Part shown: in pieces, positions 22,362-26,754 of the stretch
Layout of the letters: every line of letters begins with the position of its first letter
How positions within the stretch are numbered: position 1 is the stretch's first letter
Source: Glaciimonas sp.
GTDB lineage: Bacteria > Pseudomonadota > Gammaproteobacteria > Burkholderiales > Burkholderiaceae_D
NCBI GenBank assembly: GCA_012927625.1
Contig: JABBOV010000024.1
Coordinates: 186,001-250,000 of the forward strand
Direction of reading: 5' to 3'
DNA length: 64,000 nucleotides
The notes under the pieces: model-generated
What the model was told of the DNA's origin: nothing
What the model saw: only the letters and a program-made list of their open reading frames with translations
Database searches by the model: none
Translations under genes and position numbers: made by a program

Positions 22362-23934
22362 ACGCTGCGAGCTGATTTAATGCGTCGATCATCATTGCGT
22401 TGACCACGGTTGCGGCCCAGGGCGAACCGCCGCGTGTGCCGCTGTTGGTAATGCGCGGCACTTGCATGCAGCGCCGCAAACTGTCCTTGCTTTCACGCGT
22501 GCCGACAAAGCCGACCGGCAGCCCGATCACCAATTGCGGACGCCAACCGTGTTCGCGTATCAGGCGTGTCGCTTCTGTGATGGCGGTGGGCGCATCGCCT
22601 ATTGCCAGAATGATGTCGTTGCCGAATTTTTCCCAAGCGCGCCGGATTCCGGCTGCAGAGCGGGTGATGCCTTGCGCCTGCGCCATCAGCACGGTTTCCC
22701 GATCATGCACGCCGCACCAGGTTTCGATACCGAGTTGCTCCAGCAATGCACGCTTGAGGCCGGTCTGCACCATGGTCACGTCAGTCACCACACGCTTGCA
22801 ACGCAATAGCGCGCGGATCCCGGTCTCAATAGCGCCCGGCGAAAAATAGATGTCATCGACCGCATTAAAGTCGCCGCTGGTATGCACCAGCCGCTGCAGC
22901 GCTGTCAGATGCGCGGTAGGAAAAACCGACCAGTCGCGCCCCGCCGCGATAATGCGAAAGCTTTCGGCTTCGATCGGGTGCGGTTCGTAACGCGTAAATT
23001 CGGGTTGCGTTGGTGCTGCGGTCAGCGCGCTTGCATTCTCTTTTTCCAGCAAGCCGCGTACCTGCAAATGATGCGCTTGCTGCGGCTCTCCGACTTGTTG
23101 CTCGAAGCCGACAATTTGCACCCGATATTTGCATAGCGTGCAATTCATCGCGGCACGACCTTCAACCGCCTCCCGCGCACGATCGATCAGCACATCGGCC
23201 ACGAATGGATGTACTCCAAGATAACCTGCCTTGATTACTTCCAGCGCCGGCTCGCGCTGCTGCACCGCATCAGCGGCGGCGTAAATGCGCTTGACCAGTA
23301 CACCGTCGAACAGGAAAAACGGCAGCACAACCAGCCGCTTGAATCCCAATCGGGCGGCAGCGCGCAGGCCGTCATCGACCATCGGCTTGGCAGTGCCGGA
23401 AAAACAAACCTGGACGCCGCCGAAACCCATGCCTTCTTCGAGCATGCGGGCGAGCTTGGCGATTTCCCCGTTGGCATCTGGATCAGTAGTGCCGCGACCG
23501 ACCAGCACCAGACAGGACTGATCGCGCCGCACTGTCAGCGCAGAAAGTGCTTCGGCTGTAACGATACGTTCCTGGGCCAATTGCAATAGTTGTGGATGCA
23601 GATTCAGCGGCGCGCCGAAATGGAAGTCGATTTCGGGATATGCCCGGGCCAGTGCCAGCACCTCGCTCGGCATGTCATTCTTGGCGTGGCGCGCACCCAG
23701 CAGCACACCCGGCACCACGGCAATGTGCCGCACGCCTGCAGCCAGGTTGGCTTTAACCGCCTGGGCTATGGTCGGGCTGGCAAATTCCAGATAACCGTGA
23801 CTGACCACATGCTGCGGCGCACGTGCGCGGACCAGTTCAACCAGCGCCTCGAACTCGCGCACGCCATCCGGATCGCGGCTGCCATGACCGGCAACGACGA
23901 TGCCGAATTGAGCAGGATTTTGCATCTGCGTCAT
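22348..23934 (-). CDS. Fusion: sirohydrochlorin cobaltochelatase (CbiX) + precorrin-8X methylmutase (CbiC/CobH)
   Basis: N-part [26 protein letters not shown]..., linker [15 protein letters not shown]-part [13 protein letters not shown]...[22 protein letters not shown]. Confidence 0.93.
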
Positions 23935-24635
23935 GTCAACTCCGCTGCTTCGATCTGGCTGGACATCGGATTGCGCGTGCGGATCAGCATGATGCTCATG
24001 TCGGAGACATCGCGCTGCGCGCATTCGGCCAGGGTGCCGCGCCATTCGGCTTCGTCGCGTGTCAGGTTTTCCCATACTTCAGTCGGATGTTCTGGCGAAA
24101 TGCCGTTTTCGAGCAGGTAAGCGGCTATATGGCGGGGCATGAACGAGCGCGCTGCGTCCCACGGGCAGGGGATCACGATGGCATTGCGATTATCTTCGAG
24201 TACATGCACCAGATGACGTTTGAACGGAGTCAAATCGCCGCGTCGATGAAAGGTGATGAAGGTGGTTTCATCAAAGCAGACCTTGCCGCGCGAGGCCAGA
24301 ATTTGCGCCGAGGAAATTCCGGGCAGGGTTTCCACCGGATGACCGCAGGCGCGCTCGACCCGCTCCAGATATTGGAAGCCGCTGAAGTGGATGTCACCCA
24401 TGAAGACCACCACGCAACGCTTGCCGGCATGGTGTGCTGCGGCCACTTTTTCCAGTTGCGCGACCTGATCGCGATAATTCATCAGCACCACTTCGGCGCT
24501 GGCGGGAATGATGCTTTGCACGACGTTGACCACCGCGTCGAATCCGGCCACTACGTCAGCATCACGGATTAACTCTGCGCCGCGTTGGGTCAAATAGCCG
24601 ATGTCGCCCGGGCCTGCTCCAATACAAATAATCAT
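23931..24635 (-). CDS. cbiE: Precorrin-6Y C5,15-methyltransferase, CbiE domain only
   Basis: [32 protein letters not shown]...[13 protein letters not shown]; 234 aa, no CbiT domain. Confidence 0.88.
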
Positions 24636-24711
24636 GTCTGTTCCTCAAAAATCGTCAACGGGATTGATGCTTCCCATATTCATGTTGCTCATGTTTTCTT
24701 CATGCAGAAAG

Positions 24712-24784
24712 GTAGGTCGGAAAAGCGCAGCGCCTTCCGACAATCAGACGCAACGTCGGAAGGCGCTGCGCTTTTCCGACCTAC
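24712..24784. repeat. Perfect 30-bp inverted repeat with 13-nt loop (REPIN/MITE-like)
   Basis: GTAGGTCGGAAAAGCGCAGCGCCTTCCGAC-aatcagacgcaac-GTCGGAAGGCGCTGCGCTTTTCCGACCTAC. Confidence 0.93.
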
Positions 24785-24807
24785 AGTTTTTCCCATGCTC
24801 ATGTTGC

Positions 24808-26754
24808 TCATGTTGCATTTATGCAGCCACGGATCGTCAGCGCCAGATTTTCCGCCGACAACTCTTCTAAAGTCAGACATTCGGCCCCTAAAGCCTGCGC
24901 TAGTTGCGCGGCCCGCCCCAGGCGCAGATAACCGGTTTCGGTATCGAGTACCAGCGCCGGAATACCGCGTCCGGCCAGCATCTCCGCCAGCGCCAGCGTT
25001 TCATGCCAGGGGTCGCCGCCATCGCGCAATGCCACGTTGGCCTTGCCGTCACTGAGCAATACCAGCAACGGAGGCGCGCCGTTGGCAGCGGCCTGTTCCA
25101 GGGTTTCCAGCGCCAGTTGCAGCGCGTGTGGCAACGGCGTGCGGCCGCCGGTGGGTAATTCGCGCAAGCCTTGTTCGGCACGATCGACGCTGCGGGTAGG
25201 CGCCAGCAGCAGCGCCGCTGCGTCGCCGCGAAAGGAAATGACTGCCACTTCGTCACGCCGTTGGTAAGCATCGGTCAGCAGCGCCAGTACCGCGCCCTTG
25301 ACCGCTTCCATGCGACGCTGCGCAGCCATCGAGCCGGACGCATCCACCACAAACAGGATCAGGTTGGCGCTCTTGCCGATGCGGATTTGCTGGTGCAGAT
25401 CGCTCCTGTTTACCTTGAATTCGAGCGGCTGGTCGGTTGCTGCTGTCCGCAGCGCCGCGCTTCGCAATGTGGCCCCGACCGCAAGGCTGGTTGGGTTCTG
25501 ATCCGGTACTGCACGCACCACACGACCACGCGGCGCATCCGCCACCGCGCTGCGCCGGCCGGCAATCGGATGCATAGCGACCGCGTCCACTGCAATCCGC
25601 CGCACAGTGCCGCTGGCTGCTGCGGCGAATACCTGCTGCCCGGTTTCTTGTTCCGATTCTTGTTCAGATTCTTGCTGTGACTTTGGCTGTGGCCCGTCTT
25701 CCTCGGATGAAGCCTCGGACTCTTGTTCGGACTCCGGCGGCGGGCTGGCTTGCTGCATCAATTCGTCGAGCCGATCCTGATCTAGTCCCGGCTGCTCGAA
25801 AGGCTTGCGCCGACGGCGGTGCGGCAGCACCAGTTGCGCTGCACTGCGCACATCGTCGGGCGTTACCTGCAAGCGCCCGTCGAGTGCGGCCAGCGCGCGC
25901 GATGCCTTGTGCATCACGATATCGGCACGCAGGCTGGCGACATCGAATTCGCAGCACAGATGGCTGATCAGATCGAGCAGTGCATCATCCAGTATCACTT
26001 TCGACAACAACTGTTGCGCGGTGGCGAGCTGCGCCCGCAATGCATTTTGCTGCGGAGCCCAGGCGCTGACGTAAGCGGCCGGATCGGCTTCAAACGCAAT
26101 GCGACGGCGCACCACTTCGGCGCGCAAGGTTTTCTCGCGTGGCGCCGCCACTTCGACCATCAAGCCGAAACGGTCCAGTAGTTGCGGGCGCAGATCGCCT
26201 TCTTCCAGATTCATGGTGCCGATCAGGGTGAAACGCGCCGGGTGCGTGACCGACAGACCTTCGCGCTGCACCGAATTGACGCCCATCGCCGCCACGTCCA
26301 GCAGTACATCGACCAGATGATCTGCCAGCAAGTTGACTTCATCGATATACAGAATGCCGCGGTGCGCTGCCGCCAGCAAGCCGGGTTGAAAGGTTCGTTT
26401 GGCGCCCTGCAACGCGCGCTCCAGATCGAGTGTGCCGAGTACCCGGTCTTCCGTCGCACCGAGCGGCAGCGTAATGAAAGGCACCGCACAAGGCTGCACC
26501 GTTGCATTCGCGTTACTACAAATCTCGCAGTGACCGCAGGGTGTGCCGGGCAGACAGTTGAATGCGCAGCCTAGAATACGTTCTATCGGCGGCAGGATAT
26601 CGGTCAGCGCCCTTGCCGCCGTGCTTTTGGCGGTGCCTTTATCGCCCCGGATCAGCACCCCGCCCAAAGTGGTATCGACTGCGCACAGCAGCAGTGCCGT
26701 CTTTAACTGCTGCTGTCCGACGATGGCGGAAAATGGAAAATGCATGTTTGTCAT
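24808..26754 (-). CDS. Fused AAA+ ChlI/BchI and ChlD/BchD-type (VWA) chelatase subunit, putative cobaltochelatase partner of CobN
   Basis: LIRGDKGTAKSTAARALTDILPP...; acidic linker ESEQESEASSEEDG; VWA motif LFVVDASGSMAAQRRMEAVKGAV. Confidence 0.9.
   Translation of the reverse strand: MTNMHFPFSAIVGQQQLKTALLLCAVDTTLGGVLIRGDKGTAKSTAARALTDILPPIERILGCAFNCLPGTPCGHCEICSNANATVQPCAVPFITLPLGATEDRVLGTLDLERALQGAKRTFQPGLLAAAHRGILYIDEVNLLADHLVDVLLDVAAMGVNSVQREGLSVTHPARFTLIGTMNLEEGDLRPQLLDRFGLMVEVAAPREKTLRAEVVRRRIAFEADPAAYVSAWAPQQNALRAQLATAQQLLSKVILDDALLDLISHLCCEFDVASLRADIVMHKASRALAALDGRLQVTPDDVRSAAQLVLPHRRRRKPFEQPGLDQDRLDELMQQASPPPESEQESEASSEEDGPQPKSQQESEQESEQETGQQVFAAAASGTVRRIAVDAVAMHPIAGRRSAVADAPRGRVVRAVPDQNPTSLAVGATLRSAALRTAATDQPLEFKVNRSDLHQQIRIGKSANLILFVVDASGSMAAQRRMEAVKGAVLALLTDAYQRRDEVAVISFRGDAAALLLAPTRSVDRAEQGLRELPTGGRTPLPHALQLALETLEQAAANGAPPLLVLLSDGKANVALRDGGDPWHETLALAEMLAGRGIPALVLDTETGYLRLGRAAQLAQALGAECLTLEELSAENLALTIRGCINAT

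Follow-up and report, generated by a model that had tools for sequence, protein, structure and literature searches.

The window, a stretch of 64,000 nucleotides from a Glaciimonas sp. genome, contains a run of co-directional cobalamin genes. In this run a chlID-like gene (24808–26754, minus strand; TIGR02442, 801 bits), encoding a putative cobaltochelatase subunit related to ChlI/ChlD, is followed by cbiE (23931–24635, minus strand; NF004457, 348 bits), which encodes a cobalt-precorrin-7 C5-methyltransferase. The closest named relative of CbiE comes from an Oxalobacteraceae MAG, followed by Duganella and Herbaspirillum. The gap between the two genes holds a perfect inverted repeat bracketed by imperfect direct repeats. 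We compared this junction with the rest of its own genome (G000; 3.81 Mb in 25 contigs, with the assembly 97.8% complete), with three other members of the genus (G001, G002 and G003, the last being the sister species) and with 112 genomes of the family.

The inverted repeat consists of two arms, at 24712–24741 on the plus strand and 24755–24784 on the minus strand, that are complementary at 30 of 30 nucleotides and enclose a 13-nt spacer (AATCAGACGCAAC, 24742–24754), just as an earlier note on this DNA had described. Both arms have the same sequence (GTAGGTCGGAAAAGCGCAGCGCCTTCCGAC), a GTAG-tagged palindrome in which a single arm is predicted to fold into a 7-bp stem, an AA/C bulge, a 3-bp stem and a 3-nt loop, with the GTAG left unpaired at one end. 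This is the form of a REP, and two such REPs head to head are arranged as in a REPIN (Bertels and Rainey 2011, PMC3116915). When 3 mismatches were allowed in the 26-nt core of the arm, the number of matches expected from shuffles of the window was 0. CT is the cleavage dinucleotide of TnpA-REP, and it stands immediately 5′ of GTAG on one side of the element; we dropped it as a cleavage signature, since it precedes GTAG in only 4 of the 37 copies overall.

A search of the same genome found another head-to-head pair with the exact arm, on contig C10, and variants of the arm at other sites. With a relaxed pattern, 7 copies were counted in this genome and 3, 8 and 20 in the other three genus members, and matches appeared in 17 of the 112 family genomes (10 of 44 genera); the pattern read backwards gave 0 matches in the same genomes. 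The arm is thus not unique but repeated across genome, genus and family, although 7 copies of the relaxed form, against 0 in the control, are few for a REP family, a point that counts against the REPIN reading. Two compensated variants of the stem, GTAGGTCGG..CCGAC and GTAGGGCGG..CCGCC, differ by matched changes (T..A / G..C). The arm also occurs singly, and some pairs are hybrids that join different stems. Spacers similar to that of the window were found in the C10 pair (AATCAAGACGTAAC, reverse complement) and, in the sister species, on contigs C49 (AATTAAGGCGTAAC, reverse complement) and C22 (AAACAAGCCGTAAC); they are alike among the pairs of the window and of loci L011, L078 and L079, and those of the remaining copies are unrelated. 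The arm sequence of the window and similar spacers are therefore present at unrelated sites, and several pairs with this stem and a similar spacer, together with the variants and hybrids, are what movement of the pair as one unit would be expected to produce. Hybrid pairs at L013, L084, L089 and L090, from several genus members, lie in similar flanks (TTATTGGAGTATATGCAATAAA), which suggests an old, inherited REPIN site.

RAYTs, also called TnpA-REP, are HUH single-strand transposases. We obtained four Y1_Tnp matches in the genome of the window. The protein at C10:640393 is a RAYT, and it was ruled out as the cognate one, with 31% identity over 100 residues to the cognate-type RAYT of the sister species and no REP of the window's family found around its gene; likewise, the GTAG palindrome of this family was not found near the match at C14:208360. 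Otherwise, the genome gave a single fragment match (~46 residues) to the cognate type, so that in this 97.8% complete assembly we found other RAYT types and a fragment, and no complete cognate RAYT. The RAYT that the earlier note proposed to look for elsewhere is thus present in the genome, but of other types; the cognate type was found intact only in relatives. The sister species encodes a 177-aa RAYT with a GTAGGGCGG.. REP a few nucleotides past its stop codon and, upstream, a composite REP on a contig with a 73 bp overlap; the protein matches E. coli TnpA-REP (PDB 4er8) with E 5.5e-59 and the REP-associated transposase model REP_Tyr_transpos of NCBIfam with 204 bits. RAYTs related to it are also present in G001 and G002. 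The window's genome does have, with the RAYT absent, a 114-bp stretch that includes a composite REP and shares 94% identity with the sequence upstream of the sister RAYT; the same site adjoins a broken RAYT in G002. Given this flank without a RAYT and a fragment match only, the genome looks as if the cognate RAYT was lost or never kept, and present-day movement of the REPIN there is doubtful, as no complete cognate RAYT was found. A cognate RAYT in the same genome is not strictly required, since loss of the REPtron has been described in E. coli strains (PMC3733652).

The imperfect direct repeats, put at ~36 bp in the earlier note, proved to be 37 bp long and identical at 31 of 37 positions (84%), with one copy on the cbiE side (24671–24707) and the other at the chlID end (24790–24826). 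Their starts are 119 nt apart and they lie 4 and 5 nt outside the REPIN arms. Shuffling the window gave an expectation of 0 matches to the motif, and shuffled flanks always scored below the direct repeat. The right copy does hold the last ChlID codons (RGCINAT-stop, with the stop at 24808–24810), and we can add that both copies resemble the chlID end, as the cbiE-side copy would read CMKKT-stop. Within its own genome the motif occurs at this junction only, and in the sister species it is the native gene end; we therefore ruled out that the direct repeat is part of a mobile unit.

The sister species, whose CbiE is 97% identical to that of the window, lacks the window's REPIN in its chlID-cbiE gap. 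In its place is another REP-bearing element of ~98 bp (L048:2249–2348), in which 11-nt inverted ends (GACTTACGCAA../..TTGCGTAAGTC) enclose two paired copies of another GTAG REP (GTAGTGCAGGCCTCCGTGCCTGC), one that flanks a RAYT elsewhere in that genome; this element was inserted at the same junction independently of the window's REPIN. When its flanks are joined, one copy of the 37-nt stretch remains. Since the sister has a single copy, the chlID end was indeed duplicated locally, and the duplication is either specific to the lineage of the window or lost in the sister. G001 and G002 yielded distant CbiE matches only, and neither the direct repeat nor the window's REPIN was seen in the other family junctions that were read. 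Relatives therefore differ at the junction, although the one in the sister, occupied by another element, is not a clean empty site, which counts against the explanation that we prefer.

That explanation, which we hold with high confidence, is that the inverted repeat is a REPIN of GTAG-tagged REPs that was copied by a RAYT, landed by a duplication of the chlID end after the split from the sister species and is now a stranded copy. Two REPs facing each other across a 13-nt spacer would constitute a non-autonomous element, which a RAYT would have copied in the past. The REPIN most likely entered the chlID-cbiE gap once the two lineages had separated, at or beside the point where two tandem copies of a short stretch of the chlID 3′ end meet; this order of events is our inference. 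In its present genome it is apparently stranded, as no complete cognate RAYT was found there. The earlier note had also read the element as a REPIN, and the arm bears this out, being GTAG-tagged, often in head-to-head pairs, repeated at all three levels and located at a site where relatives differ.

It is unlikely, though worth weighing, that the insertion of the REPIN itself made the 37-bp repeats in one event, as a long target-site duplication or via gap repair. The REPIN lies 4 and 5 nt from the copies and the sister has a single copy, both of which speak for such an event. Nevertheless, none of 15 other REPIN loci that we compared has a direct repeat adjoining the element on both sides; a 10-bp match was seen in one of them, and a significant long direct repeat in one, L078, at 40–50 bp from the element, which we ruled out as a second case of long duplication because it belongs to another interspersed repeat family. 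Among the IS200/IS605 relatives, larger target-site duplications are reported not to arise (PMC2817692). Moreover, the two copies differ from each other at 6 of 37 positions, much as each does from the sister (6 and 5 of 37), a comparison over few sites, while the 30-nt arms differ at 0. Judging from this divergence, the 37-bp duplication was probably a separate and older event than the REPIN, rather than its target-site duplication. An older duplication by slippage, followed by a younger insertion of the REPIN, is the more likely order than one event, and slippage is favoured because short repeats occur inside the stretch (GCAACATGAGCAACATGA). Hence, of the target duplication proposed in the earlier note the duplication stands, with one copy in the sister, and the insertion as its mechanism is not supported, in view of the 15 loci and the divergence of the copies.

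A role of the hairpin in ending transcription, or as a regulatory RNA dedicated to the cobalamin genes, seems to us very unlikely. The minus strand of the region, as RNA, has a predicted fold of −83.3 kcal/mol (z = −8.7), so the great stability that had been claimed for it is borne out, and roles in termination and mRNA stabilization have been proposed for REPs (PMC3733652); yet our search at the hairpin found no T-tract terminator, no Rfam family scored over its gathering threshold, the hairpin is missing from this junction in other family members and the same sequence occurs at unrelated sites. The sub-threshold Rfam matches to microRNAs are probably artefacts of a long hairpin. Least credible of all is a DDE-type MITE with terminal inverted repeats, which the earlier note had offered beside the REPIN and for which we saw no evidence here. 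A short, multicopy and perfect inverted repeat would fit such an element, but what is repeated is one GTAG-tagged arm, which also occurs alone and in hybrid pairs with other stems, the cognate-type transposase is of the HUH class, and no short target-site duplication adjoins both ends, the 37-bp repeats being 4 and 5 nt off.

Transcription of the co-directional cobalamin run would include the REPIN, giving a very stable hairpin in the RNA, and the element may affect mRNA stability or cbiE expression. A 40-codon open frame (24689–24811, minus strand) opens at an ATGA where it overlaps the chlID stop, crosses the entire REPIN and closes at a second ATGA overlap, located in the repeat copy on the cbiE side. 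Read from the sequence, this frame may be accidental. We think it improbable that the insertion brought the 37-bp gene-end duplication and so recreated the ATGA stop/start overlap, with the frame through the hairpin keeping translation coupled from chlID to cbiE. Ahead of cbiE is a 15-codon open frame (MSNMNMGSINPVDDF; 24645–24692, minus strand) with a counterpart in the sister species (MNVGSINPVDEY) and none in the other family junctions that were read; it may encode a leader peptide or just be conserved 5′ sequence.

Short-stemmed REPs that carry the GTAG tag, often paired head to head, have been described as a superfamily (Di Nocera 2013, PMC3733652); four Oxalobacteraceae genera that we looked for do not appear in that paper's main text. 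With the REPINs/BIMEs of these REPs the window element shares the GTAG tag, the short palindrome, the head-to-head dimer, a spacer similar between copies, a position downstream of a gene and a RAYT in the lineage; it differs from them in its low copy number and in being flanked by a 37-bp duplication of a host gene end. REPs of the E. coli type (group 2) are recognized by a bulge in the stem (PMC8266576). The window arm resembles those of the E. coli REPtron (TnpA-REP, PDB 4er8) in its GTAG and in a bulged stem with AA on the 5′ side, and the RAYT of the sister species is closely related in sequence to TnpA-REP, whereas the stem sequence is different, the AA of the bulge stands opposite one C, and the window's genome yielded no full cognate RAYT. 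The inverted repeat is, then, a new copy of a well-known type of element, from a REPIN family spread through relatives. What it adds for the Oxalobacteraceae is such a family, with a cognate-type RAYT and two stem variants that are compensated, and a junction where each of two sister species gained its own, different REP-bearing element almost at the same position. This leaves the picture of how REPINs work unchanged, and is of use for annotation and for the study of REPIN persistence after the loss of a RAYT.

Finally, two copies of the other interspersed repeat, ~70–80 bp long (CCGCATATATTCATTGCGGCATAAATTTATACA...), flank the REPIN at L078:1300–1800 (contig C49 of the sister species). This repeat had no Rfam match above the gathering score, and it is present in many copies, with 73–89% identity, in all four genomes of the genus.
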